From a virus, in the IMG/VR virus record IMGVR_UViG_3300013093_000167, positions 1 through 31,844 of that record: a stretch of 31,844 nt of DNA. One strand, written 5' to 3'. This document shows positions 899 through 16,011 of this stretch, piece after piece. The stretch's first letter is position 1, and every line of letters starts with the position of its first letter. A program made the position numbers and the translations under genes. The notes under the pieces were generated by a model. The model ran no database searches and was not told the DNA's origin. It was given only the letters and a program-made list of their open reading frames with translations.

Positions 899-1183
899 AT
901 GGATGAACAAAAGACGATAGAGCTCAAGAACGATCTCAGTGCTGCTCTTTATACCTATCTAGCTGGCTTACATGTTCAACTAGAAACAAGTGCTAGCACT
1001 GAGATAGCCAATGACGTTCTGTTGACAGTTCTCAGCTTGAACCTAGGTCATATAATCGGACAGCTAGATCCGTCGCACCACAAAAAGAACATCAAGCTAG
1101 TGAACAAGATCATCAATGATCAGATCACGGAAGTCAGCAAGCTTGCTGATATACAGCATTTTGGAATCATAGGTCACGCCTAA
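899..1183 (+). CDS. Small helical protein of unknown function, first gene of the cassette
   Basis: This 94-residue protein is not recognised. It has no Cys, no signal peptide and no clear membrane segment. Predicted character is mostly helical: an acidic/basic N-terminus, a hydrophobic stretch around residues 41-55 (LLTVLSLNLGHIIG), a His/Lys-rich patch near 60-65 and a second amphipathic helix. The start at 899 is the only sensible ATG and has no Shine-Dalgarno. Its stop codon overlaps the ATG of the radical-SAM gene by one base (TAATG), so the two are translationally coupled. Its position ahead of a radical-SAM/SPASM-like enzyme makes it a candidate partner or substrate, but nothing in its sequence looks like a typical RiPP precursor (no Gly-Gly cleavage site, no core repeats). 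Confidence 0.7.
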   Translation: MDEQKTIELKNDLSAALYTYLAGLHVQLETSASTEIANDVLLTVLSLNLGHIIGQLDPSHHKKNIKLVNKIINDQITEVSKLADIQHFGIIGHA

Positions 1184-2085
1184 TGCTTTCTCATGTTACC
1201 AATGAGAATCTCGATTGCGCATTGGTAACGCTGTTCATGCACAATTATTGTAACTACTCCTGTTCTTACTGCAGCCCGATACATCACAATAAAAGCAACA
1301 GGTGGCCAGATGATCCTGCTCCTTTTGTAGATTTTTTAGCCAAGGTTAGGCAGCGTAACAAATACACCTACGTGGAATTCTTGGGCGGTGAACCAACCAT
1401 ATGGCCGCAGTTTAGAGATTTCGTGTCAATGGTCAGTGACCAAAACACTTACATAGAATTCAGCACAAATGCATCGCGCAGCTTGCGCTATTGGGATTCA
1501 TTTGCGGCAGGTCCGATGTATATCATGATGAGTTGGCATCATGAGCAATGCGACGATGATCATTTCGTAGAGGTAGCAAAGATACTACAAGACAAGGTCA
1601 GCTGCGGCGTAGCTCTCATGGTAGTTCCTGAAAATTTTCAGAGAGCGAGAAGATTGGCAGGACGATTAGAAGGGTTAAACATCGAGATATTGCCTCGATT
1701 TGTGCGTGAGGAAATAGGGTCAACTGTGTTCTTGGGATACACAGACGAACAACGGCAGTGGATAACAAATTATAGATATCTAAAGATGAAACCTCATGCT
1801 ATGAACTGGCAACTACCAGTAAATCTGCATCTCGACGGTGAGCGCATCAGGTTTCCGTCGATACTTGACAGAGGCCTACATGCCTTCAACGGTATGAAAT
1901 GCCAAGCAGGGGTTAGACGTTTCTACGTTGATCTAAACGGCGATATACATCGTTGTTCTCGCAGAGTTGGTAGCACGGTTGGAAACATATTTGGCGACTA
2001 TGATCTACCCAGCAGCGGGGTAATATGTGATCAAGATCTATGCCCGTGCAAGTGGGATGCTCTTGTAGAAAAGATCAGTGTTTAG
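1183..2085 (+). CDS. Radical SAM protein with SPASM-like C-terminal cysteines
   Basis: This 300-residue radical-SAM protein has the CxxxCxxC [4Fe-4S] motif at C23, C27 and C30 and the SAM-binding GGEP motif at 68-71, followed by the S-T-N strand near 94-96. The C-terminal part carries extra cysteines (C240, C258, C282, C287, C289) around a DLNGDIHRC segment, arranged like a SPASM/twitch auxiliary cluster region. Families with this layout (MoaA/PqqE/SkfB-like) reductively cleave SAM to a 5'-deoxyadenosyl radical and often modify peptides. The ATG overlaps the stop of the preceding small gene. The stop codon interlocks with that of the opposite-strand aminotransferase (4-bp overlap at 2082-2085). 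The substrate is unknown. Confidence 0.88.
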   Translation: MLSHVTNENLDCALVTLFMHNYCNYSCSYCSPIHHNKSNRWPDDPAPFVDFLAKVRQRNKYTYVEFLGGEPTIWPQFRDFVSMVSDQNTYIEFSTNASRSLRYWDSFAAGPMYIMMSWHHEQCDDDHFVEVAKILQDKVSCGVALMVVPENFQRARRLAGRLEGLNIEILPRFVREEIGSTVFLGYTDEQRQWITNYRYLKMKPHAMNWQLPVNLHLDGERIRFPSILDRGLHAFNGMKCQAGVRRFYVDLNGDIHRCSRRVGSTVGNIFGDYDLPSSGVICDQDLCPCKWDALVEKISV

Positions 2086-2936
2086 GATTTAACCAGACAG
2101 CGCAGCAGTGGTCTCACACCAACCGGTTGACCTGTGGCTGTTTTAGCTAGGTGTATAGCTTTGGTAGCAGTGAGATCAAAATCGTCGCAGACTTTTTGAT
2201 AGGCATCACCGTACTTTTTCCAGAAGTATTCTGGGCCTATTTGTTTCATGAATGCTGTACCAATGTGTAGCAAACTCTGGCAATTCATGTTGAAATCGTT
2301 CATGATGCTGATAGCACCTTCTGGTCTGGCTCTTGCGAATCTCAGCGCTATTCTATCATTGCCTAGCCCGCCTTTGCTGAGGCTAATAGCAAATGTAGAT
2401 ATAGCCGGATGGTCAAAATCAAAATCTATTCCTCTGCTACAGGATACCCAGGCCCCGTCGATGTGAACTGGTATTCCAAGTACTGCGCAGCGATCTAGTA
2501 TCTGATGCATCTCAGGATGGACATCGCCGTATGCAGGAAATGGCATTGATATCAACAGCTCTTTACTGGAATCCAATGTTTCAACAGTTGCATATTCTAT
2601 GTTTTCGTTCAGTCGCCAGTGATATTTGTACTCGTTTTCAAATATCATGAGGCGCTGTCCGCCCACTCTTTGATACAAATCGTCAATGAATTGAGTGCAA
2701 CCAACGCATGCGTCTAACCTCTGAAACGCGCCATATCCTCGTAGATTGCTCAAGCTATGTCCGTCTAGGTATTCAATGAATGTATCTTTGAAATCATTGA
2801 AGATATTTGACGAATCTACTAGATTTTCGTTATACAGCGCACCGTATAGCTTGCGAATGCCGTTGTCGTACATTGGTTGCGGCCTTTCGACCTGTAACCA
2901 TTCTGCTGTGTACCGTCTATTTGGACCATCTCTCAT
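2082..2936 (-). CDS. PLP-dependent aminotransferase-like protein (fold type I)
   Basis: The 284-residue product has the hallmarks of the aspartate-aminotransferase fold: IPVHIDGAW with D160 as the residue expected to pair with the PLP pyridine nitrogen, and SLSKG with K188 as the Schiff-base lysine, followed by basic residues (R195, R199) near the phosphate site. It is about 100 residues shorter than usual class I/II enzymes, mainly at the N- and C-termini, so it may be a minimal or altered PLP enzyme. It is the only - strand gene inside the left half of the cassette. Upstream of its ATG there is no good Shine-Dalgarno; a palindrome (2940-2953) lies 4 nt before the start. Donor and acceptor cannot be predicted. 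Confidence 0.72.
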   Translation of the reverse strand: MRDGPNRRYTAEWLQVERPQPMYDNGIRKLYGALYNENLVDSSNIFNDFKDTFIEYLDGHSLSNLRGYGAFQRLDACVGCTQFIDDLYQRVGGQRLMIFENEYKYHWRLNENIEYATVETLDSSKELLISMPFPAYGDVHPEMHQILDRCAVLGIPVHIDGAWVSCSRGIDFDFDHPAISTFAISLSKGGLGNDRIALRFARARPEGAISIMNDFNMNCQSLLHIGTAFMKQIGPEYFWKKYGDAYQKVCDDFDLTATKAIHLAKTATGQPVGVRPLLRCLVKS

Positions 2937-2939
2937 GGT

Positions 2940-2953
2940 ACAAGTTTACTTGT
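2940..2953. promoter_or_regulatory. Palindromic site (possible operator)
   Basis: ACAAGT-TT-ACTTGT is a perfect inverted repeat with 6-base arms. It lies between divergent genes and overlaps the proposed -35 box of the rightward promoter. It is also in the leader of the leftward aminotransferase, so one repressor could control both. No matching regulator gene is seen in the window. Confidence 0.4.
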
Positions 2954-2973
2954 GTGCTGGGATATCTTATAAA
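2945..2973 (+). promoter_or_regulatory. sigma70-like promoter for the radical-SAM operon
   Basis: TTTACT (4 of 6 matches to -35), a 17-nt spacer and TATAAA (5 of 6 matches to -10) at 2968-2973 place a transcription start near 2980, about 22 nt before the ATG at 3002. The same place also reads TATAAATT, one base from the T4 late consensus, so late transcription is an alternative. Confidence 0.5.
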
Positions 2974-3001
2974 TTAACATGGACATATCTTTGGATTTTA
3001 T

Positions 3002-4279
3002 ATGATGTGGTGCCCTTTACCGTGGACACATCTCGGTGTCAAAAACAACGGAGACCTACGCATGTGCAGCCACAGCCAAAGCGCTGGGCAAGGCAACACA
3101 TTGCTGTACAAAGGACCAGATATTCTAAGCATAACTGACCTTGATCGAGAAGATGTGTTAAATTGCGACACTCTCAAAGAAGTGCGTCGTACGATCCTAG
3201 ATGGACAATGGCCTGATCAATGCCGGCGTTGCCAACAAGAATCTTCTATAGGATCTAACAGCCGAGACAAATGGGAAACTGAGAGACACAAGGAAAGTTT
3301 CACCAAAGACATGGCATTGAAATCCACTGCACCTGACGGTTCAGTCACAGGTCTCAAGTTCCAAGATTTTGATCTGCGCATAGGCAATCAATGTAATCTA
3401 CGCTGCGTGATGTGTTTTCCCGGAGAAACGTCTAAATGGTATGACGCTCATCAAGAGATCACAGGCACTGATTATTTCATGGTAGATGACAAGACCTACC
3501 ATCTAGATACATCTAAAGATGCGTTTGGTTGGTCAAAAGACAAGAATAACATAGACGCGTTGATGAGGGCTTCGAACGGCTTGCTCAAGATAAAATTCGG
3601 CGGCGGCGAACCGTTGTTGATAAAGCATCACAGATATCTTTTAGAGTCGCTGATATCCTATGGATATAGCAATAAAATGGAACTTGAATACAGCGTGAAC
3701 TTGACATATTTCCCTCCCGATTTGTTCAAACTATGGAAAGAATTCAAGAAGATACGCATTTGTGCTAGTGTTGATGCTATAGGTACTGCTAACGAAGCGA
3801 TAAGATATCACAGCAACTGGGAAAGCATAACCAAGAATTTAACCATGCTCGACGAAAGCGATGATAACATATCAGTTTTCATATCGACCACTGTTAGCCT
3901 ATTGTCATTGGAACATTATGGTGCTTTATTAAGATGGGTATCTGATCAAAGATTCAAGAAGATCAAAGAACATTTCAGCCATATGGTTTACAATCCCGTT
4001 TATTTTAACATCAACATACTAGAGCCCGCGCAGATAGATGAGATGTTCAATTACTCTAGGCAACATATCATTGCCGCGCCCGATCTAACACGTAAATTAG
4101 ATCATTATGAGAAACTCTATCACCGATATCGTATGTCAGACGACGATGCCTTGGAACATAGGCAGCGGCTGGTGATGGTATGGGATCGTTTCAAGAAAAA
4201 TCAAAGACAGGATTGGGATGCTATTTTTCCAATAGCAGCAAAGGCTGTGAACGAATGGCGAGATAGATACCATGTCTGA
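3002..4279 (+). CDS. Twitch-domain radical SAM protein (first of a tandem pair)
   Basis: This 425-residue protein has an N-terminal twitch-like domain ahead of the radical-SAM core. C4 (in WCPLPWTHLGV), C22, C74 and C77 would hold an auxiliary Fe-S cluster; then CNLRCVMC gives C131, C135 and C138 for the SAM cluster, and FGGGEPLL (199-206) is the SAM-binding strand. This order, twitch before core, defines the twitch-domain radical-SAM family seen in marine phages. The reaction is not established. A second in-frame ATG follows directly (3005). Only a weak GGA precedes the start. The gene overlaps the next one, a clear paralogue, by 8 nt. Confidence 0.9.
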   Translation: MMWCPLPWTHLGVKNNGDLRMCSHSQSAGQGNTLLYKGPDILSITDLDREDVLNCDTLKEVRRTILDGQWPDQCRRCQQESSIGSNSRDKWETERHKESFTKDMALKSTAPDGSVTGLKFQDFDLRIGNQCNLRCVMCFPGETSKWYDAHQEITGTDYFMVDDKTYHLDTSKDAFGWSKDKNNIDALMRASNGLLKIKFGGGEPLLIKHHRYLLESLISYGYSNKMELEYSVNLTYFPPDLFKLWKEFKKIRICASVDAIGTANEAIRYHSNWESITKNLTMLDESDDNISVFISTTVSLLSLEHYGALLRWVSDQRFKKIKEHFSHMVYNPVYFNINILEPAQIDEMFNYSRQHIIAAPDLTRKLDHYEKLYHRYRMSDDDALEHRQRLVMVWDRFKKNQRQDWDAIFPIAAKAVNEWRDRYHV

Positions 4280-5585
4280 TACATGGTGTCCTATACCATG
4301 GAATTTCCAAGCAGTTCGCAGCAACGGCGACCTTAGAGTCTGCTGCCAGGCCAACATCACTAAAGATAGAGGTGTGCTGCGTAAATCTGACGGTAGTACC
4401 TATAACGCAGCACGCGATAACATGGACGAATCTAGAAACAGCGATCTCATGCGTTCTATAAGACGCAACATGATAGCTGGTGTATGGAGTGAAGAATGTG
4501 GTCGATGCCGATCAGAAGAGTCTTCTGGTATGGTTAGCCGTCGCATGTATGAACACGATCGTTGGTCGTTGCGACTAGAGGATGTAGCTAGCCAAACCGC
4601 AGAAGATGGGTCCATAAAAGTAGAAAATTTCCCAATAACCTATTATGATCTTCGTTTTGGAAATCTCTGTAACCTAGCCTGCCGAATGTGCGGACCACAG
4701 GACAGCACAGGGTGGTATGACGATTATAACAAGCTTGAAGGAAAAGATTGGTTCATCGATACCCACGGTAGAGAGCAGATGACCAAGCATAACGGAAAAT
4801 GGATTAGCCATAGTTATAATTGGCATAACAGTGATAGCTTTTGGCATCAGATAGAATCAAATGCAGATGCTGTGCAGCATGTTTATATGGCAGGAGGAGA
4901 GCCTCTGCTCATAGAGAGACATTATGAGTTCTTGGAACGCTGCATTGACAACGGTGCAGCATCGAACATGAATGTGGAATACAATACCAACATGACCAGC
5001 ATATCCACGAGAGCATTAGATCTTTGGTCTCACTTCAAACAGATCCAGATTGGTGCCAGCATTGATGGATACGGTAAAGTGTTCGAATACCAACGCTACC
5101 CTGCTAGCTGGGACAAGGTTTGGCGAAACATACAGAAGGTTGATCAAGCGTCTGATAATATCAAAGCGTGGTTTGCCTATACTGTAACAGCATATAATGT
5201 GCTACACATGCCGGATTTCATGAGATGGAAACTTGAAACAAGTGGATTGAAGAAGTTTAATAACTCCGCATTACAGCCTATAATAACCTATCATATGGCG
5301 CATCTACCCTACGAGCTAAATGTGCGGGTGTTGCCCAAGATGGTCAAAAACATGGTTATGCACAAGTTCGACCAATTCTTAGAATGGTTAGAATTAGCAG
5401 GCTATGATGATATCGTGGTTAAGAACGCTAATGATATCAAAAACAGCGTGTGCGGTTACATGAATGCTGCGCATACATATAGAAAAGATTGGAATACTTT
5501 CAAGTCGGTAACAGATAATCTCGACAAGATACGCAACCAATCTGTGCTAGACATCATACCTGAACTACAACCCTGGATGTTATGA
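4272..5585 (+). CDS. Twitch-domain radical SAM protein (second of a tandem pair)
   Basis: This 437-residue paralogue of the preceding gene has the same layout: N-terminal C6 (WCPIPWNFQAV), C24/C25, C76 and C79; the SAM-cluster motif CNLACRMC (C133, C137, C140); and AGGEPLLI (207-214). It shares with its neighbour the W-Y-D segment after the cluster motif and an A-S-x-D strand in the later half of the barrel. The pair probably arose by tandem duplication and may act on the same or successive substrates. It overlaps the upstream gene by 8 nt, and the next gene starts 13 nt after its stop with an AAGGAC ribosome-binding site. Confidence 0.9.
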   Translation: MSDTWCPIPWNFQAVRSNGDLRVCCQANITKDRGVLRKSDGSTYNAARDNMDESRNSDLMRSIRRNMIAGVWSEECGRCRSEESSGMVSRRMYEHDRWSLRLEDVASQTAEDGSIKVENFPITYYDLRFGNLCNLACRMCGPQDSTGWYDDYNKLEGKDWFIDTHGREQMTKHNGKWISHSYNWHNSDSFWHQIESNADAVQHVYMAGGEPLLIERHYEFLERCIDNGAASNMNVEYNTNMTSISTRALDLWSHFKQIQIGASIDGYGKVFEYQRYPASWDKVWRNIQKVDQASDNIKAWFAYTVTAYNVLHMPDFMRWKLETSGLKKFNNSALQPIITYHMAHLPYELNVRVLPKMVKNMVMHKFDQFLEWLELAGYDDIVVKNANDIKNSVCGYMNAAHTYRKDWNTFKSVTDNLDKIRNQSVLDIIPELQPWML

Positions 5586-5598
5586 TAAGGACAATGAC

Positions 5599-6879
5599 AT
5601 GAGTTTCTGCGCAGTAGATGACGACCACACCAAGAGCCTATTGGTGATCTGGGACCTAGGCCGCAGATGTACATATTCTTGTTCATATTGTCCTCCGCAT
5701 AGGCGAAATAATTGGAGTCCGCTAGCTAGTTTTTCAGAACTGGCCAAGACCGCGGACAACGTAGCAAGATACGGTGAGATTTACAACAGACACCGGGCAA
5801 AACCATTTAAGATATCATGCAGCTTCACCGGCGGTGAACCAACCGTAAATCCAGATTTCTTCTCATTTTTGGAATACCTCAGTGAGAAGCATCCAGACAT
5901 GCATAGGACCTTGACAACCAATGGTTTCTATACTGAGAGACGTTTAGAACAGGTCATGAACAACACAACCTTTTCTACCATCAGCTATCACTGCGAAAGC
6001 ACTGTTGAACAAAAAGCACAGGTGCGGTTAAACATCAAGATAATGCACGAACGAGGTTACAGATTCAAAGTCAACGTCATGTTTCATCAAGACGACGAGT
6101 ATTTCAAAGAATGCATTGATCTCTGCCAATGGTTTGACGACCTTGGTATCTCGTATACTCCTCGGGTGATCGGAGACGAGGGTACCATAAAATTAGGTCT
6201 AAAGGACAAGACCGTGCACCTCTATTCAGATTGGCAGATGGAGTGGTTTAAGCAATATTGGAATCTTAAGAGTTCCAAGGTTCTGCGAGAAGATCAAGCA
6301 GTTGCTAGAACCTCTAATCAGCAACAAGCGCAACATTTCAACCAATCTAACACACCTCAACAAGAAAAGAATCTAGTTGGTCAAACCATTGGTAGACCCT
6401 GTTGTGGTGGTCGCAAGATGTCATTGCTTGGCGAGGATGGCCAATGGGATGATGCCAAATTTGTCACGGATAACAACTTCCAAGGTTGGAACTGCATGAT
6501 CAACTGGTATTTTCTTTACATACACCAGGAGATTGATCAAGTTTGGCATCATCAAACCTGCCAAGTGGATCTAAATGGTGAAGTGAATCCAATATGTAAG
6601 GTCAGCGAGCTTGACAAATACTGCGACAATCTCGAGTCAACTATTAACCAAACAGGGTCGATACCGTTGATTCGTTGTCCTAAGACGCATTGCGGCTGCG
6701 GCTTGTGTGTGCCAAAGAGCAAACGAGATGACATAGCGTTGGGTATTTTCCAAAAGCATACCAATGGTGTCATAAAACCCAACCTGATGGAAATGAAAAC
6801 CAATTCTGAGGATGGTCAGACTCTGAAACACATGGTGACTGCCTGGGATATTGAAAACGGGCATACGCATGGACACTAA
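5599..6879 (+). CDS. Radical SAM protein with long Cys-rich C-terminal region
   Basis: The 426-residue product carries CTYSCSYC (C24, C28, C31) and FTGGEPT (76-82). After residue 260 it has many cysteines (C268, C269, C299, C321, C333, C342, C360, C365, C367, C370), including a CGCGLC cluster, enough for one or two auxiliary Fe-S clusters of SPASM type. A Gln/Asn-rich linker lies around 236-258. The N-terminal sequence (WDLGRRC, then CPPHRR) is closely matched by the 7431-8549 protein, so these two are relatives. The SDR gene begins 10 bases before its stop codon. Confidence 0.88.
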   Translation: MSFCAVDDDHTKSLLVIWDLGRRCTYSCSYCPPHRRNNWSPLASFSELAKTADNVARYGEIYNRHRAKPFKISCSFTGGEPTVNPDFFSFLEYLSEKHPDMHRTLTTNGFYTERRLEQVMNNTTFSTISYHCESTVEQKAQVRLNIKIMHERGYRFKVNVMFHQDDEYFKECIDLCQWFDDLGISYTPRVIGDEGTIKLGLKDKTVHLYSDWQMEWFKQYWNLKSSKVLREDQAVARTSNQQQAQHFNQSNTPQQEKNLVGQTIGRPCCGGRKMSLLGEDGQWDDAKFVTDNNFQGWNCMINWYFLYIHQEIDQVWHHQTCQVDLNGEVNPICKVSELDKYCDNLESTINQTGSIPLIRCPKTHCGCGLCVPKSKRDDIALGIFQKHTNGVIKPNLMEMKTNSEDGQTLKHMVTAWDIENGHTHGH

Positions 6880-7438
6880 CAGGATCCTGATTACCGGAAA
6901 TCGTGATAAAGGTTTGGCAAAATCATTAGCCAACCTGTGGCCACATGCCACCTTTGCTAGCAGAACAACTGGGTATGATCTCACATCTGATCAGGACCAA
7001 GATAGGCTAGTTGATCTGTCAGCTGAGCATGATATTTTCATTAACAACAGTGCGTTGTGGAAATTCAATCAAACTCTTTTGTTGGAAAAGGTTTACAAGC
7101 GTGCTAAGCGCGACAAACATGATCTGCGTATCATATGTGTGGGTAGCACCACAGACAGAGCCACAGGCGCTAAAGACTGGATGTACCAGCAGGAAAAGAA
7201 AGCCTTGCGAAATTACTGCACTGGCATTTCAATGATGAGCGTGTGGGCAGGCGGTCCACACGTCACGCTGATCAGTCTAGGAACATTGGATAACAATCAA
7301 GAAAAACATCCTGATAGGAAATGCATGAAACTAGATGCAGCTGCTGATTACATAAGATGGTTGGTTGATGCCCCGGCTGGCTTGGCAATAAATGAACTTA
7401 GCATAGATCCAATGCAGATGGAAAATTGGCATGAATGA
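6869..7438 (+). CDS. Short-chain dehydrogenase/reductase (compact)
   Basis: The 189-residue protein has an SDR Rossmann layout: TGNRDKGLA (9-17) as a variant of TGxxxGxG, SRTTGYDL near 31-38 at the cofactor-specificity strand, INNSA (58-62) matching NNAG, S93 and Y106-x-x-x-K110 as the catalytic Ser/Tyr/Lys. NAD(P)H-dependent oxidation or reduction of a carbonyl/alcohol is expected. It is some 50 residues shorter than classical SDRs. I use ATG 6869 because the upstream TTG at 6851 would add six residues ahead of the first strand without support. It sits between two radical-SAM genes, overlapping the first by 11 nt and the second by 8 nt. Confidence 0.8.
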   Translation: MDTNRILITGNRDKGLAKSLANLWPHATFASRTTGYDLTSDQDQDRLVDLSAEHDIFINNSALWKFNQTLLLEKVYKRAKRDKHDLRIICVGSTTDRATGAKDWMYQQEKKALRNYCTGISMMSVWAGGPHVTLISLGTLDNNQEKHPDRKCMKLDAAADYIRWLVDAPAGLAINELSIDPMQMENWHE

Positions 7439-8549: not shown

Positions 8550-9283
8550 GATTTCCTTTTTTAGAAAATAATCAATTGGTTTTAATAGAATATGTTCCAG
8601 GTAGTTCTGGCCAACTATTAACGCGCCTATGGTTTGAGCTTGATGCTAGGATAGGTTATGATAATCCTGAGATCATGAACCAAACGCACAAGACTGCGCA
8701 TCCGGCATCGGGGGAGATCAATCTAGATATACTGTTACCAAAGCGAATGCATGATTGGTTTTTAGACAAGTGTGAACCCGGATCTTGCTACGATTACATG
8801 TCATATTTGGAAATTTTCAGTGCGTCGTTGTATGCCCTGCGTTATCGAGATCCTTGCTACGGTGTTGAGAACGAGTTCTATAAATCTCGAGATGCAGCAC
8901 CAATTGGTAACGTTGTGTTACATTCGCTACACGGCTGGGACCATGTGCTGCCAATTGAAGAGATCAGAGACCATGGTTGTAACGTTAGACTGATCAGGCT
9001 GATACCAAATAGTCCTGTTGGTAGAAGGTATCAGTATGCTAGAGCACAAGCATGTTATCCTCTGGATCCTCATAGCTGGCGCAGTTCAATAAGACGATTC
9101 AATGCCAAACCAACTGATGATGCTTTTGATTTTGTCTCATTGTTGGTGAGCAAAGACAGCGACAGCATAATAGATTGGTTAGTGTCTCAGATTGGCCAAC
9201 ATTTGCGACAAGACAAATTGACTAAAGTACGCCAGATATTAGAAATCTATTATTCAAGAGTAGTGGATAATTTGGAGATATAA
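8546..9283 (+). CDS. Unknown protein with a Gly-rich N-terminal loop
   Basis: This 245-residue protein is not confidently recognised. Its N-terminus (residues 9-27) is a hydrophobic strand followed by PGSSGQ and a helix, which recalls the first strand and loop of P-loop or sulfotransferase-like proteins, but there is no proper GxxGxGK[ST]. Later parts contain a VVLHSLHGW segment and an RLIRLIPNS strand. The start is TTG at 8546, overlapping the upstream TGA; the next ATG (MNQTHK) would delete the conserved-looking strand. It ends with a one-base overlap (TAATG) with the kinase-like gene, so it is co-translated with it. Confidence 0.65.
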   Translation: MRFPFLENNQLVLIEYVPGSSGQLLTRLWFELDARIGYDNPEIMNQTHKTAHPASGEINLDILLPKRMHDWFLDKCEPGSCYDYMSYLEIFSASLYALRYRDPCYGVENEFYKSRDAAPIGNVVLHSLHGWDHVLPIEEIRDHGCNVRLIRLIPNSPVGRRYQYARAQACYPLDPHSWRSSIRRFNAKPTDDAFDFVSLLVSKDSDSIIDWLVSQIGQHLRQDKLTKVRQILEIYYSRVVDNLEI

Positions 9284-9849
9284 TGAGTTTCACATTATGG
9301 CAAACTGATAGATCATCTAGAGGATCGCTAGCTGAAGTGTGGATTGATGTAGAAAACAATCTATGCCAAAAATTATATAAAACAGATGGTACTTCGATAA
9401 CTGGTAAGCAACCCTACCATACAGATAAAAATGAAATCGAAAAGCTATGGAACAATGAAATCCATTGGAGCAGTCGATTAAAAGGAGAATGGCTTTTAGA
9501 AACGCTTGAATTCGGAGCATTACCCGATGATGCTGGTTTCTATATCATACAGCCTTATTCTCCAGACCTAATACACTTGTATGAAGGTGGTTTGACCATA
9601 AAGCAACACATACCAGATGTGGTTGATCAGATCATAGAAATGTTCAAATTTTTCCAACTACATGATATGTACAAGTTCAATCATGCTATGAGCAATCTAA
9701 CAGCTGTATCGGGCAAGATAAAAGCCTTTGATTTCAAATATGCGTCTGCAAGGATACCAGCGCATCGACCGCAGGAGATACACTGCATAGATGCTTGGTT
9801 ATCTAAGATAGATCCAACACTAAAAGAAAAACTGAGACCCTACGTGTGA
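9283..9849 (+). CDS. Kinase-fold-like protein (possible small-molecule kinase)
   Basis: The 188-residue product resembles a shortened protein-kinase-like fold: a beta-rich N-terminal lobe, NEIHWSSRL with E59 as a possible helix-C glutamate, a hinge-like YIIQPYS (87-93), then HDMYKFNHAMSNL (127-139) in the place of the catalytic loop, with D128 and N138, and AFDFKYA (148-154) with D150 in the place of DFG. The glycine loop is poor. Such features are typical of lipopolysaccharide or aminoglycoside kinase relatives. It could be a sugar or metabolite kinase, or an inactive pseudokinase. It is coupled to its neighbours by 1-nt and 4-nt overlaps. Confidence 0.5.
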   Translation: MSFTLWQTDRSSRGSLAEVWIDVENNLCQKLYKTDGTSITGKQPYHTDKNEIEKLWNNEIHWSSRLKGEWLLETLEFGALPDDAGFYIIQPYSPDLIHLYEGGLTIKQHIPDVVDQIIEMFKFFQLHDMYKFNHAMSNLTAVSGKIKAFDFKYASARIPAHRPQEIHCIDAWLSKIDPTLKEKLRPYV

Positions 9850-10607
9850 AAGATATCTTGTTACAACAGAGCAACGCGATCAGAACTTTGGTCTTGCCAG
9901 AGGTGTTATCTGTGGTCAATTCCGTGCCTGTGGATTACGATAGCGTAATCAAATACACCACTGGCATTATTGCTTGGCTTAAACCGATGATCGATCTATC
10001 CGATTTTAGTGTATATCCAACCAATGGCATTACCGAAGGATTGAATTGGTGGTATGGACGAGAATCTCGATCTGTTGAGATCAATGCTGGAGACTATCAA
10101 TGGATAGAAAGCAAGACTGTTGGTTCACAGGAAATACATTACATGAGTGTTCCCAGTGCTATAGATGGCAATCATGTTGATATACCAACTCATGTTCCTG
10201 TAGCACTAGATATAGCATATGTAGGAAGCACTGCTATCAAGAAAATAGATATTGCAGACAACGTGGAATATGTGTTCTATAGCCTGAGCAAGAGTTTTGG
10301 TATTAGGAATGTGCGAACAGGATGGATCTTCACACGAACGCCTGATCGCAAATTAGAAGAATTAGTGTACGGAGCAAAGTATTACAACTATCATGCTCGT
10401 AACGTATCTGAAAAAATCATATCGAGTTTTGCTCTTGATCATGTCTACAATAGATTGCGTGATCAGCAAGAGGATATCAGTAGCAAGCTAGAACTACAAC
10501 CCAGCGACAGCGTCTGGTTAGCAACTACTACTCACGACGATTACCAAAAGTTTCGAAGAAAAGATAACGTGGCGCGATTGTGTTTAGCGCCACTATATAA
10601 AACATAG
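9846..10607 (+). CDS. PLP-dependent aminotransferase-like protein (compact)
   Basis: This 253-residue protein has TNGITEGLNWW (59-69), equivalent to the phosphate-binding loop before the PLP-stacking residue; VALDIAY (119-125) with D122 and Y125; and YSLSKSFGIRNVRTGW (145-160) with K149 as the Schiff-base lysine and R154/R157 near the PLP phosphate. It is shorter than usual class I enzymes and lacks most of the C-terminal domain. The start is GTG at 9846, overlapping the upstream stop by 4 nt. Together with the - strand gene at 2082-2936 it makes two minimal PLP enzymes in one cassette. Its substrate is unknown. Confidence 0.76.
   Translation: MKDILLQQSNAIRTLVLPEVLSVVNSVPVDYDSVIKYTTGIIAWLKPMIDLSDFSVYPTNGITEGLNWWYGRESRSVEINAGDYQWIESKTVGSQEIHYMSVPSAIDGNHVDIPTHVPVALDIAYVGSTAIKKIDIADNVEYVFYSLSKSFGIRNVRTGWIFTRTPDRKLEELVYGAKYYNYHARNVSEKIISSFALDHVYNRLRDQQEDISSKLELQPSDSVWLATTTHDDYQKFRRKDNVARLCLAPLYKT
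10569..10593 (+). other. Hairpin at the end of the aminotransferase gene
   Basis: GTGGCGC (10569-10575) pairs perfectly with GCGCCAC (10587-10593) around an 11-nt loop, inside the last codons before the stop at 10607. The following bases are TATATAAAAC, not a T run, so it may be a transcript-stabilising or attenuating hairpin ahead of the oxygenase gene, or it may have no role. Confidence 0.3.
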
Positions 10608-10621
10608 AAGGGATATCAGTC

Positions 10622-11269
10622 ATGCACAAGCCTTGTTACGAATTAAATCTCGACATACCGTCCGATCTAAAATCTCGTGTATCTGATATCTGGGAAGAGA
10701 TAAAGAACAAGAACAGAAAATATCTGCAACCAGAAGCATTGAAATCTGAATATCCAGACCTTTGGGAGGTTCTTGGACCCTTAAAAGATTGGTTTGCTCC
10801 CAAGGTACGATTGATAAACCATGTAGCAGATGAGCTTGGCACATCAGCTATACATCTTGATGTCAATGAACATCTCCAATATGAGAATGTCAGCGCAGAT
10901 TCTATCACTCAGTGTGCTCTAAACATTCCACTGTTCGAGCCAGTTGGTGATATCACTCGTTGGTGGCGTCAGAAAAATCCAGATATAATCATGCCATACG
11001 ATTTTTGGATAGGTGATGGCACTGATCTAGCTTCTCACAAGACCAACAACAACAAGTATGAGATGGAATGCATCTACGAGTTTGAAATCAAAAATCGTCC
11101 TGTGCTGTTTAGGACAGGGATCTGGCATAACGTTGAGCAGGTTAAACCAAGCATTAGGACCATGCTAAGCTTCCATGCGCACTATACTATAGACTGGGAT
11201 AGCCTGGTAGATGTTGCCAAGCGCACTGGTTTGCTTATTGAGCCGACTTATTCTGCTTATAACGATTGA
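10622..11269 (+). CDS. 2OG-Fe(II) oxygenase-like protein (AspH-like)
   Basis: The 215-residue product fits a double-stranded beta-helix dioxygenase: H78-L-D80 as the first two iron ligands, then LFRTGIWHNV with H169 as the third ligand, and R179 in the 2-oxoglutarate-binding position on the last strand. The C-terminal third aligns by eye with the 11765-12352 protein (shared F-x-T-G-x-W-H-x-V and a G-x-L-I-E ending), so the two are paralogues on opposite strands. An AGAAGGG ribosome-binding site precedes the ATG. The last 35 bp overlap the end of the - strand operon. Confidence 0.72.
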   Translation: MHKPCYELNLDIPSDLKSRVSDIWEEIKNKNRKYLQPEALKSEYPDLWEVLGPLKDWFAPKVRLINHVADELGTSAIHLDVNEHLQYENVSADSITQCALNIPLFEPVGDITRWWRQKNPDIIMPYDFWIGDGTDLASHKTNNNKYEMECIYEFEIKNRPVLFRTGIWHNVEQVKPSIRTMLSFHAHYTIDWDSLVDVAKRTGLLIEPTYSAYND

Positions 11270-11768
11270 AAACTTCATTGCTGGCGTACGGCCAACCAGA
11301 GATATTCAATCTTCGGCCTGAGCAATGATCCACAGCATGCATGAATCCAGTGGTGCACAACAGCAATCTATTGCGTCTTGGCAAGATTGAAAAGCCTTCT
11401 GCTGTGAAGGCCCCGTCTTGCTCATCGGTCAGATACAGCATGAATACCCAGTCACCGTAGATCTCTGGATCTTCTTTGTGAGGAGCACAAAAACTGTTCT
11501 CGTCAAATTCTTTGGCAAACAGATGAACCGGTGTGAGATTCTCTCGATCAATTGGTTTTGAGGTTAGCTGTTCTATCTTATCCAGCAGTTGATTCTTGAG
11601 ATTGCCATTTTGAATGCCAGAATTGATCATGAACCAGTCATACTCAGTTCGTTCTTTCATAACATGGGGGCCTGATGAATCTAAATGTATGCGCTTGCCC
11701 TGATCTATGACTTTTTCCAATTCGCCGAGGTATTCCTCTGACAGGAAGTTATCTTGTATGATAATCAT
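11235..11768 (-). CDS. 2OG-Fe(II) oxygenase, prolyl-4-hydroxylase-like
   Basis: This 177-residue protein begins MIIIQDNFLS, typical of small prolyl-hydroxylase-like oxygenases. The expected ligands are visible: H97 with D100 (or E99), then GFMHAV with H144, and R152/R153 for 2-oxoglutarate, inside strands with VFMLYLTD and RRLNISGW. Start 11768 is chosen because it gives an ATGA overlap with the preceding gene; a longer frame to 11885 would lie wholly inside that gene. It is the last gene of the - strand operon, and its 3' end overlaps the convergent oxygenase gene. Substrate may be a protein proline or a free metabolite. Confidence 0.75.
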   Translation of the reverse strand: MIIIQDNFLSEEYLGELEKVIDQGKRIHLDSSGPHVMKERTEYDWFMINSGIQNGNLKNQLLDKIEQLTSKPIDRENLTPVHLFAKEFDENSFCAPHKEDPEIYGDWVFMLYLTDEQDGAFTAEGFSILPRRNRLLLCTTGFMHAVDHCSGRRLNISGWPYASNEVFNRYKQNKSAQ

Positions 11769-12352
11769 CGTTCTATCAAGAATCCTTTCTCTCTGCAGTA
11801 TTCTACTGCGCCCTGCCACGTCACAAATGGATGGAAATGGAAACCAGCCATCCATCTTTCCTTGGTATATTTCACCGAATGCCATTGCCCTGTGTTGAAC
11901 AATATTGGTGGTTCACCAAGCGAGTATTCGTCAACGACTTTCAATTTCATCTTGTGCGCAATGTCTCGATGGGTCTTCCAGTCGTACTTTTTGGCTTCTA
12001 AATCAATGTACCACTTGGTTACTGTCGGATCTGGGTCTCCTAGGAGGATGTTAATCGTAGCATTGCGTGCCATGTTAGGTGGTATCTCACCTTCAAAGTG
12101 ATCCAGTTCATGTGCGTCAATATCAATATGCGGACCATAGTAGGTGTCAGCTGGTGCTCTCAAGAATCTCATGTTATTGAGAAAGCAATTATCAAACAAC
12201 TCATAAAAACGCGCCGTTTCGGGTCCAACCTGCTTGTAGTTTAGATATTCCGATGCTTGCCACGTTGCTGGCTGGTTTGGATAGAATTCGCGCAATTCAT
12301 TCTTGAGCTCTTCCAGTCTCGGAAAATCTAGTTCATAGGCACAATAGAACAT
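11765..12352 (-). CDS. 2OG-Fe(II) oxygenase-like protein, paralogue of 10622-11269
   Basis: The 195-residue protein has H75-I-D77 in a PHIDIDAH segment, followed by an N-rich strand (ATINILLG), then LFNTGQWHSV with H158 and R166, matching the H-x-D...H...R set of Fe(II)/2OG oxygenases of the aspartyl/asparaginyl hydroxylase type. The ending (GFLIER) and the F-N-T-G-x-W-H block parallel the + strand oxygenase ending at 11269. It overlaps the methyltransferase gene upstream by 20 nt and the next gene by 4 nt. Confidence 0.75.
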   Translation of the reverse strand: MFYCAYELDFPRLEELKNELREFYPNQPATWQASEYLNYKQVGPETARFYELFDNCFLNNMRFLRAPADTYYGPHIDIDAHELDHFEGEIPPNMARNATINILLGDPDPTVTKWYIDLEAKKYDWKTHRDIAHKMKLKVVDEYSLGEPPILFNTGQWHSVKYTKERWMAGFHFHPFVTWQGAVEYCREKGFLIER

Positions 12353-12953
12353 GTTCTTTATCCTTCATTTTGATACTCTTGGTAAGAAAACCGTATCTAT
12401 TTTTAGCTAGCTCATAGAATTCCAATTGATGAGTCCATGCGCCAACCATCAAGACTCCGCCGTCGTTGGCATATTTGATCCAGTAATCAGCTTGCTTTTG
12501 ATTCTCTTCTATTTCCGTGGTTATGTCTAGGATGCAGAGATCATAACCTATCTTCCATGGATAGGAAAACGGAGACGTGTCGAGTATCAATGTCGCATTC
12601 TCCATCTGTTGGAATGATTGTATGGTTAGATTGAAATCATAATTTCCATGATACTGTGTTGGAAAATACTTCTTGACTGCTTTCTTCCAATCGTGTTTCT
12701 TTAGTCGAGGGTCGATATTACCTTCGGCTTCACCTATGCTATAATCGCCCATGTTTGAGTTTGGTACATGTATGAGCTTGTCCTCATCTATGGTCTGCAC
12801 TCCGTAGACATGTCCTTGACCCTTTAGAAGTTCGTGGAACTTATAAGACAATCCGCCATAGTATGTCCCAATCTCTACGATGGTTTTTGGTTGATACTCG
12901 TCAAATACTTCCTTGAAGACCGGCCAATAAGAGCCTTCATGCATAGTGTACAT
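12333..12953 (-). CDS. Class I SAM-dependent methyltransferase-like protein
   Basis: The 206-residue product carries TIVEIGTYYGGLS, the motif I strand and glycine loop of a Rossmann methyltransferase, with a second acidic position in VQTIDED and a late DLCILDIT strand, followed by GGVLMVGAW. The pattern recalls the cephalosporin-hydroxylase/rhamnosyl O-methyltransferase group and other metabolite O-methyltransferases. The frame stays open to 13025, but the part before 12953 lies inside the preceding gene. ATG 12953 has an AAAGG about 11 nt upstream; ATG 12944 is an alternative with an 8-nt overlap. Confidence 0.68.
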   Translation of the reverse strand: MYTMHEGSYWPVFKEVFDEYQPKTIVEIGTYYGGLSYKFHELLKGQGHVYGVQTIDEDKLIHVPNSNMGDYSIGEAEGNIDPRLKKHDWKKAVKKYFPTQYHGNYDFNLTIQSFQQMENATLILDTSPFSYPWKIGYDLCILDITTEIEENQKQADYWIKYANDGGVLMVGAWTHQLEFYELAKNRYGFLTKSIKMKDKEHVLLCL

Positions 12954-13590
12954 AATCTTTGTAAACCTTTTCACTTCTGGCGATGAGTTCTTGATGCCTT
13001 TCCGGATTGAGCCATCCGATAACAAACACCAACAATCTATTATCGTCGCCTGGCGTTTTATCTACTCCGTGCATGCTGCCGTATGATTTCAACACAAAGC
13101 TGTCTGTGGTTTCCGGTACGTGGCAATACTTTTTCTCGGTTATCTTATTGTAAACCAACTGACCGTCTCGGACTTCTGGGTGGCCGTCAGACAGATATAA
13201 GCTGCTTCTGTCGCCAGCAATTATCATCCTGTATCCGCATGGTTCGGTCTGTAGCTGATGCTGTCGATAGTCTTCTGTTATTAATCGACAATTATCTTTA
13301 GGACCTTTATAGGTGGTATAACTGTCGTCTACGTGTGCAGCAACATCTTGATTGGCCCTCAGTAATTTGAGTAGAGTGATGCTTTCAAATGGAAAATATT
13401 CTTTGATATATTCAACCAATTCAGTGTGGATCGGTTTGAGCTTAGCTGGCGCATGCAGGGGCTCGCTAAGAGTCCATTCTGATATGTACTCTTCTTTCCA
13501 AAAATAGAAATCTACGTCGGGATTGAACTCATCGAGCACCTTCTGCTTGTGTTCAAACACTGGCAGATCCAATGGCATAAATCTAATCAT
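12937..13590 (-). CDS. 2OG-Fe(II) oxygenase-like protein
   Basis: This 217-residue protein has AAHVDDSY with H86 and D88 as the first iron ligands, YGSMHGVD with H174 as the third, and DNRLLVFVIGW with R185 as the 2-oxoglutarate-binding arginine. This spacing is normal for the prolyl-hydroxylase/AlkB-like superfamily, and cyanophages are known to carry many such enzymes. The 5' end overlaps the SDR gene by 8 nt and the 3' end overlaps the methyltransferase gene. It is a separate branch from the AspH-like pair, judging by the absence of the F-x-T-G-x-W-H block. Confidence 0.75.
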   Translation of the reverse strand: MIRFMPLDLPVFEHKQKVLDEFNPDVDFYFWKEEYISEWTLSEPLHAPAKLKPIHTELVEYIKEYFPFESITLLKLLRANQDVAAHVDDSYTTYKGPKDNCRLITEDYRQHQLQTEPCGYRMIIAGDRSSLYLSDGHPEVRDGQLVYNKITEKKYCHVPETTDSFVLKSYGSMHGVDKTPGDDNRLLVFVIGWLNPERHQELIARSEKVYKDYVHYA

Positions 13591-14095
13591 TTACCGCAGT
13601 CCTTTTGACGCCGTTGCCTATATGAATGCGTTTGATCTCATATGGCTTATTGTATATATAATGGATTGTTTCTACGATATCATTAAACTCGATGTCGCCG
13701 CCGTAGTTTTCGACGAATCCCAAGCAGATGTTGGTTATGCGGCAAGATCTTGCCAACGCTTGTAGTTCCTCACACATGGAATGTGCTGCTATTTTTTCTA
13801 CGGGATAGGTTTCGCTCACCAGTTCCCAGCTCTTAAGGCTTACCTTATCTACTCCGATGTTGAAGATGTGTTTTGGTTGGTAGCGCCAGCTATTAAAGAT
13901 GGCCTTGAGCATGGTAGCTTGTCCAAATCCACCATGTGCGGAGTTGATAAACACATCTATATCGCGGCAGTGTTCTACGATCTTGTCAGGAGAATTGATG
14001 TCAAATCCGTTTGTCCTACTGAAGCCCGCAGCATGGAAATGTTCAAAACAGGCTTTGCCTATGCCAGACGTATGTCCTGTGACTGCTACCTTCAT
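13583..14095 (-). CDS. Short-chain dehydrogenase/reductase (compact)
   Basis: The 170-residue product has TGHTSGIG (6-13), a clean SDR nucleotide-binding motif, FINSAHGG at 49-56 in the NNAG position, and Y97-x-x-x-K101 followed by AAHSM, the usual active-site helix. The catalytic serine position on the preceding strand (NIGVDK) is not conserved. It is well below the 230-250 residues of classical SDRs, so the C-terminal substrate loop is reduced. It follows the cobalamin-type radical-SAM gene with a 4-nt overlap, mirroring the radical-SAM/SDR pairing at 5599-7438. Confidence 0.8.
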   Translation of the reverse strand: MKVAVTGHTSGIGKACFEHFHAAGFSRTNGFDINSPDKIVEHCRDIDVFINSAHGGFGQATMLKAIFNSWRYQPKHIFNIGVDKVSLKSWELVSETYPVEKIAAHSMCEELQALARSCRITNICLGFVENYGGDIEFNDIVETIHYIYNKPYEIKRIHIGNGVKRTAVND

Positions 14096-15585
14096 TTCAA
14101 CACCGCAAAAGGACTCTGAAGTTCCTTGTCCGGATTGTTGATGGGATATCCTGCTTGTTTCATATAGAGCAATTCTTTACCACGTCCTAGATGATAATGT
14201 AAGAAATTCAAATCATAGTTCTCCAAATGATACGTGTCCTCTGGTTTGAATATTCTTTCTAACGCTGCTTCTACTTCGTATATCTTCATCTCTGGCGGCG
14301 GATTCAAGAGAAACTGTGCAAGAGTGTCCTTGGTTATGTTTTTATCAAGTCCAAAATTATAGAATGTATTGAAATACAGCCAAATCAGATAGATCTTCTT
14401 TATTTCTGCTAGATCGTAACTGTAACATTCGTAGATCATTTCAAACGTCTCACCATCTGGTAGTATTAGACGTTTGGTCTTGATCTTATATCTGTCTTTG
14501 TATTCTTGTTTGGCCATCGGTGTGTTAGGGAGTATGTACAACGGATAACTGCGTGCGAAATCTATACCCAGTTCCTGATGCTTGAATAGAGTATCTGTCC
14601 AAGAAGCAGCAGTCTCACCTGGCAGCCCTAGGATCAGTTCGCTGCTAACGCTGACGTCTCGTAGTTCATTCAAGATGTCTAACAGTTTCTCGGTCTTGAT
14701 ATTTTTCCTGTCAATGGTATCCAACACTTCGGGTGACAGCGTCTGCAGGCTGATCTTTACATTGCGCTTCTTATCGTTGAAGTTATCCATAACTAGGTTC
14801 ATTATTGGTGCCATCCAAGGGCTGCCGTTCTTGGTAAATCCTGCGAATGTCAGCAGCATGTCGTTGCGCTGCTTGTGCTTAACGATAAATTCAATGAAAT
14901 CTAAATCTCGCTTGAATATGCCATAGTTGGCATCTAACATCTCTAGTCTTTTGACTTTATAGCCGAGGATGTGTAGAAGATTTGCGTAGACACTGTTGTC
15001 TTCTAATTGGGTAATCTTGCTTCTGCTAACGCCGCCCCAATCGCAGAACGCACAATGATATGGACAGCCACGGTTTGTTTCGATAGCAACGTTTACGTCC
15101 TTTTCCATTATCTTATCTAGGATACCGTCGCTATATGGAGTTGGTATCGAATAGACTGAATCAGCATTGGGATCCAACAGCTTTTCAAACTTTAATTCGC
15201 CTGGACCTGTGATGTAATGATCTACGTATGATCTCTTGTATTGCTCTAGGTCATCTTCTGGAACGTTGGGTCCGCCGTAGATTACGATGCCAGTTGGATT
15301 GTATGATTTGAATATCTGTGCTATCTTATCATTGGCAACTTGATTCCATACATAGCAAGTCATGCCTAATATATCGGCAGACTTCAACTTGTCGTGGAAT
15401 TCCGCATCGTCCCATTTGTAGCGATATTCTGGTTCAAGAAATTCATAATGATTGCGTATGAATTCGTTTTTCAAACAATGCGATATGAGACAGGCCACTG
15501 GATACGGCGCCCAATCTTCGTAGACTGAAGATATGGTCGTTAGTAGAATCTTACGCTTTGCGTAGGACATATTGATACTGTCCAT
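14092..15585 (-). CDS. Cobalamin-binding-domain radical SAM protein
   Basis: At 497 residues this is the largest cassette enzyme. Residues 1-140 resemble the B12-binding Rossmann domain (ILGMTCYVW, then GIVIYGGPNVPED and a late ITGPGE), without the DxHxxG cobalamin ligand motif, as in many class B radical-SAM enzymes. The core follows with ETNRGCPYHCAFCDWG (C174, C178, C181) and a later DANYGIFKRD and ISLQTLS. Class B enzymes often methylate unreactive carbon or phosphorus centres or rearrange rings. Start 15585 is used; ATG 15570 (MSYAKRK) shortens the overlap with the GNAT-like gene and is equally likely. It is followed by an SDR gene. Confidence 0.86.
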   Translation of the reverse strand: MDSINMSYAKRKILLTTISSVYEDWAPYPVACLISHCLKNEFIRNHYEFLEPEYRYKWDDAEFHDKLKSADILGMTCYVWNQVANDKIAQIFKSYNPTGIVIYGGPNVPEDDLEQYKRSYVDHYITGPGELKFEKLLDPNADSVYSIPTPYSDGILDKIMEKDVNVAIETNRGCPYHCAFCDWGGVSRSKITQLEDNSVYANLLHILGYKVKRLEMLDANYGIFKRDLDFIEFIVKHKQRNDMLLTFAGFTKNGSPWMAPIMNLVMDNFNDKKRNVKISLQTLSPEVLDTIDRKNIKTEKLLDILNELRDVSVSSELILGLPGETAASWTDTLFKHQELGIDFARSYPLYILPNTPMAKQEYKDRYKIKTKRLILPDGETFEMIYECYSYDLAEIKKIYLIWLYFNTFYNFGLDKNITKDTLAQFLLNPPPEMKIYEVEAALERIFKPEDTYHLENYDLNFLHYHLGRGKELLYMKQAGYPINNPDKELQSPFAVLK

Positions 15586-16006: not shown

Positions 16007-16011
16007 TGATG

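Follow-up and report, generated by a model that had tools for sequence, protein, structure and literature searches.

Cassette location and phage backbone

The window analysed here is a stretch of 31,844 nucleotides that constitutes the complete IMG/VR record IMGVR_UViG_3300013093_000167 and originates from a T4-related jumbo phage. It carries an enzyme cassette of approximately 17 kb (899-17993), flanked by tail sheath and tail tube genes and containing six radical-SAM (rSAM) enzymes together with about a dozen helper enzymes. The cassette thereby extends to 17993, past the end at 15585 that a first-pass annotation of the same DNA had set. Its left border is the C-terminal part of a gp18-like tail sheath gene (16-819, + strand; Pfam Phage_sheath_1C, E 7e-16; PHROG tail sheath, E 1e-116), and its right border is a gp19-like tail tube gene (18100-18696, + strand; PHROG tail tube, E 6e-50) whose product shares 49-53% identity with the tube proteins of Phosso, Atu_ph07 and PA5oct. 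A strong hairpin resembling an intrinsic terminator, a consensus match only, lies between the sheath gene and the cassette (826-854, + strand; a 12-pair stem followed by TTTTTATC). The T4 late-promoter motif TATAAATA occurs in one copy, 25 bp 5' of the tube gene, which is not above chance expectation, and the number of sigma-70-like promoter matches equals that expected by chance.

The backbones of PA5oct, Atu_ph07 and Phosso display sheath, cargo, tube, second tube and head closure genes in the same order as the window, but their cargo is a homing endonuclease or an RNA-binding protein, whereas that of the window consists of rSAM enzymes. The sheath/tube site is a general cargo hotspot in jumbo phages, and given the other cargo found there in these three phages, the position of the cassette implies no function.

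Radical-SAM enzymes

All six rSAM genes proposed in the first-pass annotation were found in place and in the proposed orientation. Each contains one CxxxCxxC motif and exceeds the gathering cut-off of PF04055 (Radical_SAM); GGEP is present in the five enzymes on the + strand and missing from the one on the - strand (14092). The proposed division into three designs, namely, N-terminal twitch, SPASM-like C-terminus and cobalamin type, was likewise borne out, with a putative N-terminal domain in the last.

rS2 (3002-4279, + strand) and rS3 (4272-5585, + strand) are of the N-terminal twitch type. They are paralogues (E 3e-58) that match NCBIfam NF033640 over nearly the full length with 281 and 387 bits, respectively, against a cut-off of 170, below which the other four rSAMs of the window fall; the name of this family, twitch domain-containing radical SAM protein, carries no functional meaning. 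A second family (mutual E 1e-11 to 1e-13) with SPASM-like C-terminal cysteines comprises rS1 (1183-2085, + strand; 300 aa; GGEP; Cys 240, 258, 282, 287 and 289), rS4 (5599-6879, + strand; cysteine cluster at Cys 321-370) and rS5 (7431-8549, + strand), the signature gene of the islands described below. In 21 homologues of rS5, CX3CX2C, GGEP and C311/C333/C354/C359 are invariant. The dN values of rS1 to rS5 range from 0.06 to 0.15 with dS above 2 or saturated (rS1: dN 0.06, dS saturated), and the dN/dS of rS2 is 0.06.

The sixth enzyme, rS6 (14092-15585, - strand), resembles class B (cobalamin-type) methylases. It matches the cobalamin rSAM methylases TokK (E 3e-41) and CysS (E 1e-28), and with a family profile its radical-SAM domain is of the TokK/CysS type (E 1.3e-56 and 4e-37, respectively). 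We infer an N-terminal cobalamin domain, for which the Pfam B12-binding model gave no match and the B12/rSAM model TIGR04013 a partial match (residues 71-183). rS6 scores far below the cut-off of the KedN5 family (NF033712; 150.8 bits against 700). Viperin identity was rejected, as the best score in the window was 40.5 bits (rS5) against the NF038283 cut-off of 180; viperins top the list of fold matches of rS5, but with TM scores of about 0.5 or less. A QueE or simple 7-deazaguanine role was rejected for the six rSAMs, all of which score far under the curated QueE cut-offs. The best PDB profile matches include anSME and SkfB.

Helper enzymes

Two modules can be distinguished in the cassette. 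Module A comprises rS1 to rS5, a short SDR and a short PLP enzyme, and module B comprises rS6, 2OG-oxygenases, a methyltransferase, an acetyltransferase and a further PLP enzyme. The cassette opens with a small conserved ORF of 94 aa (899-1183, + strand), which gave no Pfam or PHROG match and has relatives of 48-84% identity at the same place. The PLP enzyme of module A (2082-2936, - strand; 284 aa) is a short fold-type I protein, aminotransferase- or decarboxylase-like on the basis of its predicted structure (AlphaFold pLDDT 88). Foldseek returned 854 matches at E<=0.001, with L-Thr-O-3-phosphate decarboxylase as the best (E 3e-10), followed by aminotransferases. Lys188, Asp160, Arg195 and Arg279 are conserved, the Schiff-base Lys188 (SLSK) is invariant, and dN/dS is 0.07. 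The short SDR-type oxidoreductase (6869-7438, + strand) lies in an ORF that opens at 6851, with the start at 6869 suggested by homologues; Ser99, Tyr112 and Lys116 (numbering of the 6851 ORF) are invariant in 16 homologues. Two genes without a family match follow, and inspection of their sequences tentatively points to a sulfotransferase-like or P-loop protein (8546-9283, + strand; 45% identity to the related contig G001) and a kinase-like protein (9283-9849, + strand; found in 6 of 59 rS5 loci).

Several families of the right part are present in all 13 rS6 contigs examined, including a short PLP aminotransferase-like enzyme (9846-10607, + strand; weak match to Aminotran_1_2, E 0.003, below cut-off), three 2OG-Fe(II)-oxygenase-like proteins on the - strand (11235-11885, with a weak PHROG 274 match, HxE and a distal His; 11765-12352, with an HID motif; 12937-13590, with an HVD motif), a SAM methyltransferase resembling CmcI and sugar O-methyltransferases (12333-13025, - strand; TIGR04371, E 0.003, below cut-off; PDB CmcI, E 0.003) and a candidate GNAT-like acetyltransferase recognised by eye (15551-16006, - strand). 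An Asp/Asn beta-hydroxylase-type 2OG oxygenase of the same module (16557-17195, - strand) is above the PF05118 cut-off (E 6e-6) and retains 70-79% identity over 13 contigs. A further 2OG-Fe(II)-oxygenase-like protein with an HxD motif (10622-11269, + strand) gave no family match and is homologous to the protein encoded at 11765-12352 (E 8e-16). The remaining genes encode a second short SDR-type oxidoreductase (13583-14095, - strand; adh_short, E 0.003, below cut-off), which is a paralogue of the 6851 SDR (E 4e-9), a sulfotransferase (16012-16560, - strand; Sulfotransfer_1, E 1e-4, barely above cut-off; PHROG galactose-3-O-sulfotransferase, E 5e-6) and a fatty-acid desaturase (17235-17993, - strand; PF00487, E 2e-14; DesA-family match). 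The cassette genes retain their catalytic residues and are under strong purifying selection where this is measurable.

Distribution and exchange of the modules

Homologues of rS5 were detected in at least 598 viral stretches; searches of 50,697 phage records and 72,556 plasmids gave no homologue. The rS5 islands, represented by 59 distinct loci, have a median rSAM count of 6 over no more than 21 kb, and some large phages of 200-519 kb carry 13-20 rSAMs. rS3 is present in 53 of the 59 loci, the SDR in 30 (adjoining rS5 in 18), QueC-like PP-loop enzymes in 24 and the 2082-type PLP enzyme in 19. Asp/Arg hydroxylases, QueC-like PP-loop enzymes, methyltransferases and a carbamoyltransferase are island neighbours in other contigs. 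Cargo of this kind was present worldwide in large uncultured phages, at least dozens of them distinct; this occurrence of the rSAM arrangement in dozens of independent viral contigs excludes chance, and such viruses therefore appear to run a conserved pathway during infection.

The eight core families of module B are all kept in the 13 related contigs examined, although gene order and genome position are altered, and their divergences are correlated (Mantel r 0.45-0.95, p <=0.015; 13 contigs). The conserved co-occurrence anticipated by the first-pass annotation thus holds for module B, as it does for the rS5 island over its 59 loci, and with a conserved gene set the case of separate origins and no conserved co-occurrence does not apply. 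Its view that this phage cargo is denser than isolated auxiliary genes is also supported. Module B lies at the sheath/tube site in the window and in G001, and in a second island of the same backbone in marine contigs; the related contig G012 has module A without module B. A tract of low dS (11765-14095; dS 0.01-0.05) within saturated flanks shows recent exchange, and the genes at 8546 and 9283 are swapped between close relatives, with 45-48% identity against 80-99% for their neighbours.

A profile scan of 84,980 species for rS6 recovered a near relative only on the MAG contig L090. A bacterial origin was rejected, since 20 of the 22 ORFs of L090 match viral loci, many with 84-97% identity to the phage contig L192, and L090 is therefore a misbinned phage. 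A search for rS5 in Verrucomicrobiota, which had no positive control, gave no match.

Proposed function and alternative explanations

Confidence is high in the gene content, its conservation, the intact active-site residues, the co-inheritance of the families and the mobility of the modules. The whole gene set represents tailoring-type chemistry, and the cassette most likely encodes a pathway that can be interchanged and that synthesises or tailors a small metabolite or glycan. We propose a cargo island inserted at the sheath/tube hotspot and made up of two co-inherited enzyme modules. Module A, with the N-twitch rSAMs at 3002 and 4272, the SPASM-like rSAMs at 1183, 5599 and 7431, the short SDR and the short PLP enzyme, would build or radically remodel a small scaffold. 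Module B, with the rS6 methylase, four 2OG-oxygenase-like proteins, the CmcI-like methyltransferase, the PLP enzyme, the acetyltransferase and, as optional members, the sulfotransferase and the desaturase, would decorate a scaffold through C- and O-methylation, hydroxylation, transamination, acylation and sulfation. As substrate, a small metabolite or glycan residue produced in the infected cell is most likely. That the two modules act jointly on a product of this class is a tentative reading with a little under an even chance. No enzyme of the recognised scaffold-forming classes (NRPS, PKS, nucleotidyltransferase or glycosyltransferase) was seen in the cassette; the occurrence of the modules apart, as in G012, means that one shared pathway is not required; and the correlated divergence within module B would be expected from co-transfer alone too.

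The first-pass annotation had suggested a peptide, sugar or nucleotide as the substrate, of which a peptide product is disfavoured. Unoccupied DNA in the cassette amounts to 242 nt of 17.2 kb, spread over six gaps; this leaves no space to encode a precursor peptide, and a RiPP cluster was rejected for the cassette on this ground. The missing precursor gene would suit post-translational modification of virion or host proteins, in which peptide-type rSAM maturases and Asp/Asn hydroxylases would act on tail or other phage proteins. SPASM and twitch rSAMs are commonly peptide maturases, the profile matches to anSME and SkfB agree with this role, Asp/Arg hydroxylases recur in the islands, and tail genes adjoin both islands. 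However, an argument from position is weakened by the homing endonuclease and RNA-binding cargo at this site in PA5oct, Phosso and Atu_ph07, the terminator-like hairpin parts the sheath gene from the cassette, and the sulfotransferase, desaturase and CmcI-like methyltransferase suit protein substrates poorly; we consider protein modification unlikely. The latter enzymes, with the second sulfotransferase-like protein, the acetyltransferase and the CmcI/NanM-like character of the sugar O-methyltransferase, would fit remodelling of host surface glycans or lipids (LPS/O-antigen) in infection, with exclusion of competing phages as one possible benefit, and sister islands with an FkbM methyltransferase and a UDP-sugar dehydrogenase point the same way. 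This explanation is quite unlikely: no glycosyltransferase is present in the window cassette, the families listed for 71 proteins of the islands likewise include none, and known surface-glycan clusters use far fewer rSAMs than the six to twenty of these islands.

It is improbable that the enzymes supply phage DNA with a hypermodified nucleotide or produce a nucleotide-pool signal, an elaborated 7-deazaguanine being one example. FolE, QueD and a QueE-like protein are encoded in the backbone of relatives, QueC-like enzymes occur in the 24 loci mentioned above and beside the two rSAMs of KVP40, and the closest folds of rS5 include viperin and MoaA, both of which act on nucleotides. The FolE-QueD-QueE set is nevertheless separate from the islands (in G012, whose backbone includes the QueE-like gene, queuosine-type genes lie at about 175-179 kb and islands at 80-89 and 160-163 kb), and the window rSAMs fall far under every QueE or viperin cut-off. 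The model for the 5-hmdU DNA kinase of thymidine hypermodification, HMUDK_hel (PF18723), matched none of 11 large relatives, in a search whose control also gave no match. Least probable is an accumulation of unrelated auxiliary genes at an insertion hotspot with no common pathway. Such a process would account for the general cargo at the site, the separability of the modules and the swapping of the genes at 8546 and 9283, but not for the completeness of module B in all 13 contigs even though it was reordered and relocated, for the recurrence of the SDR-rS5 pair and the N-twitch rSAMs over dozens of loci, or for the strong purifying selection.

The preferred reading of a small-metabolite or glycan pathway can be extended to a bolder and rather doubtful one, namely, that large phages carry a virus-specific secondary-metabolite pathway without bacterial counterpart. 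B12-dependent C-methylation, a number of 2OG oxidations and several radical reactions of the twitch/SPASM type would then yield a new small molecule or residue found only in infected cells, with the cassettes swapped between lake and ocean jumbo phages.

Relation to known phage systems

The first-pass annotation considered a new pathway, which is too strong, because multi-rSAM modules had been described in CP220/CPt10 and in a T4-like Tara genome. The virulent, T4-related Campylobacter phages CP220 and CPt10 encode 11-12 rSAM proteins, and a cluster of five is exchanged as an interchangeable module (Timms et al. 2010, PMC2853527). The 183-kb uncultured T4-like phage TARA_ERS488813_N000010 carries 12 rSAM genes (Nishimura et al. 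2017, PMC5332604); it was described only by gene count and Fe-S assembly genes, without cluster anatomy or pathway. As in CP220/CPt10, the window has five or more clustered rSAMs in a T4-related phage and module exchange between relatives, the latter indicated by the low-dS tract in saturated flanks and by module B at two different islands. The rSAMs of CPt10 are weakly similar to rS1, rS4 and rS5 (E down to 1e-13), and near its rSAM cluster is a gene whose annotation includes a threonine-phosphate decarboxylase domain. A profile comparison of this PLP-like gene with the 2082 family gave no significant match. The amidinotransferase of CPt10/CP220 has no counterpart in the window but distant homologues in the sister islands L118 and L146. 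In contrast to the window, the CPt10 stretch examined displayed no N-twitch rSAM, B12-type rSAM, 2OG oxygenase set or sheath/tube placement. The kind is therefore already known, and the present islands are a new, much wider variant of it; no analysis of these islands was found in the literature on phage-encoded biosynthetic clusters and huge phages with rSAM islands.

In the usual picture of viral genomes, auxiliary metabolic genes come singly. The islands described here are whole multi-enzyme units with up to 20 rSAM genes per large phage contig, conserved over freshwater and marine jumbo phages, and their enzyme families have essentially no representatives in cultured phages. Identification of the product would provide the first function for phage rSAM islands, unexplained since 2010. 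Among cultured phages, the Vibrio jumbo phage K566 has five N-twitch rSAM genes in 17 kb, and the Schizotequatrovirus KVP40 has two adjoining a QueC-like gene. Their N-twitch rSAMs share about 19-28% identity with rS2 and rS3, and neither an rS5 relative nor module B was seen in these two phages. With KVP40 and K566 in culture, the question is testable now.

Radical SAM genes and cassette content

The six radical SAM (rSAM) genes reported in the first-pass annotation were confirmed in the window, which is a complete IMG/VR record of 31,844 bases: all six ORFs were found on the claimed strands, and each carries CxxxCxxC and scores above the Pfam Radical_SAM cut-off. GGEP is present in all five plus-strand genes and absent from the minus-strand gene, rS6 (14092). 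The proposed division into three designs was borne out. rS2 and rS3 (3002, 4272) are N-terminal-twitch enzymes above the NF033640 cut-off; rS1, rS4 and rS5 (1183, 5599, 7431) are related to one another and have SPASM-like C-terminal cysteines; rS6 is similar to the cobalamin-type methylases TokK and CysS. The cluster ligands and four C-terminal cysteines of rS5 are invariant.

The proposed cassette span of 1183-15585 held for gene presence but ended too early, as enzyme genes run on to 17993. Only 242 nt in total are unoccupied within 899-18099. Of the other genes, two encode short PLP-type enzymes, two encode short SDRs and five encode 2OG-oxygenase-like proteins. Single genes encode a CmcI-like methyltransferase, a sulfotransferase and a desaturase, and a GNAT protein, a kinase and a second sulfotransferase are tentative assignments. 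Ser99/Tyr112/Lys116 of the SDR are invariant; the lysine and companion residues of the PLP enzyme are conserved, and a confident model confirms its fold.

Genomic position and borders

The cassette lies between the tail sheath (16-819), which is followed 3′ by a 12-pair terminator-like hairpin, and the tail tube (starting at 18100). Other neighbours are a second tube-like protein (18761-20443, 560 aa), a head closure gene, the large terminase (23937) and a UvsX-like recombinase (29090). The nearest isolate tail tubes belong to the jumbo phages Phosso, Atu_ph07 and PA5oct, which likewise run from sheath through cargo, tube and second tube to head closure, with one extra structural gene ahead of head closure in PA5oct. 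Their cargo at this site is a homing endonuclease or RNA-binding protein, so the cassette fills a cargo hotspot common to these phages.

The second tube-like protein has a long, low-complexity C-terminal region and diverges much faster (45-73%) than the tube and head closure proteins (mostly 75-96%). Two ORFs at 26503-27869, between the terminase region and an ssb-like gene, had no match on the related viral contigs G001 or G012, and their 176-aa and 279-aa proteins had no PHROG match.

Module A islands, module B and exchange

rS1-rS5, a short SDR and the PLP enzyme at 2082 form module A. At least 598 stretches homologous to rS5 were found in IMG/VR, and none among 50,697 phage records or among plasmids. 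Eighty loci were kept, giving 59 after dereplication at 95%, with 1-10 rSAMs within 21 kb (median 6, n=59). N-twitch rSAMs occurred in 53/59 loci, an SDR in 30 (immediately upstream of rS5 in 18), the 2082-type PLP enzyme in 19 and a QueC-like PP-loop enzyme (SGGxDS and CxxCxxC motifs) in 24. Sixteen large contigs (110-519 kb), all chosen via rS5 loci, hold 5-20 rSAMs each, most with a T4-type terminase or sheath gene. All examined sheath-to-tube contigs of the window's lineage, several of them near-identical, hold an N-twitch rSAM, SDR and rS5 in between. At 11-17 of the 59 loci, rS5 islands are flanked by a MoxR-like AAA ATPase paired with a DUF2201 metallopeptidase/VWA protein (L109:2639-4905 and homologues).

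Module B comprises rS6, the PLP enzyme at 9846, oxygenase-like genes (11235, 11765, 12937, 16557), a methyltransferase (12333) and a GNAT-like gene, all present in 13/13 related contigs, a few of which are near-duplicates. The order rS6-12937-12333-11765 is constant, and the remaining genes are reshuffled and inverted. Module B lies at the sheath/tube site in the window and G001, and in a second island in marine contigs (GC 34%). The second island of G012 (216 kb, freshwater lineage), whose backbone matches the marine contigs at ~27-73% identity outside the cassette, holds two other rSAMs instead. Since all genes are kept despite differing location and order, module B is mobile yet complete, as a pathway would be expected to be. 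Its pairwise divergences are correlated (Mantel r 0.45-0.95), which is also expected from co-transfer alone; the change in gene order argues more strongly for a pathway.

Selection was estimated pairwise against G001, the nearest relative (64 kb). For rS1-rS5, dN was 0.06-0.15 with dS >2 or saturated; dN/dS was 0.06-0.07 where computable (PLP enzyme 2082, rS2). The tract 11765-14095 shows 98.6-100% identity to G001, a co-occurring phage, and dS 0.01-0.05 amid otherwise saturated surroundings, so this part of module B underwent recent homologous exchange. The genes at 8546 and 9283 share only 45-48% identity with same-place copies in G001 and were thus swapped.

A profile scan for rS6 in genomes of 84,980 species returned one close match, on a contig whose ORFs agree with a 242-kb viral contig. 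This contig, L090 (17.6 kb, binned in a Puniceicoccaceae MAG), is misbinned phage DNA: viral loci account for 20/22 of its ORFs, many of which show 84-97% identity to L192. rS6 is likely absent from bacteria, and only likely because seeding patterns limit scan sensitivity.

Relation to known phage clusters

Phage rSAM clusters are not new. Campylobacter phages CP220 and CPt10 encode 11-12 rSAM proteins, with an interchangeable five-rSAM module, and a putative amidinotransferase (Timms et al. 2010, PMC2853527), and a 183-kb T4-like genome carries 12 rSAM genes (Nishimura et al. 2017, PMC5332604). The N-twitch family has relatives in cultured phages. Vibrio phage K566 (255 kb; L205, record 161548-178915) carries five of its genes within 17 kb, some of them labelled hypothetical in the annotation, and offers a cultured handle on the rSAM islands. 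In Vibrio phage KVP40 (L255:5435-9098, KVP40.0258-0261), two N-twitch rSAM genes stand beside a QueC-like gene, which repeats in miniature the association in uncultured islands. The novelty here lies in the jumbo-phage system of sheath/tube site and second island, in rS5 as a signature, in a B12-rSAM/2OG module that is conserved, and in the scale.

In CPt10 (L256:3497-10552), the five rSAM genes and amidinotransferase lie 3′ of base-plate genes, together with a gene whose annotation includes a threonine-phosphate decarboxylase domain. The amidinotransferase has distant homologues in uncultured islands L118 and L146.

Putative function

The cassette is multi-enzyme cargo that is mobile, is under selection and keeps its active-site residues intact. 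Its enzymes may make or decorate a small metabolite or glycan residue, a product class that we propose tentatively, at somewhat below an even chance, from the chemistry of module B, the sulfotransferase and methyltransferase relatives, and the absence of a precursor peptide gene from the cassette and of any glycosyltransferase among the genes seen. Protein modification, to which anSME and SkfB among the weak profile matches and Asp/Asn hydroxylases point, is unlikely but deserves some weight. Alteration of a surface glycan or lipid is unlikely as well, and slightly more so. A hypermodified nucleotide would fit the QueC-like neighbours, viperin and MoaA among weak fold matches, and the FolE, QueD and QueE-like genes that relatives carry in their backbone, and is nevertheless improbable. 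A pile-up of unrelated genes, to which the pathway-like pattern of module B is opposed, is highly improbable.

In the G012 backbone, outside the islands, FolE, QueD-like and QueE-like genes adjoin at ~175.2-179.0 kb (L052:15208-19004) and probably serve 7-deazaguanine production; QueD/PTPS occurs in 10/12 relatives searched.
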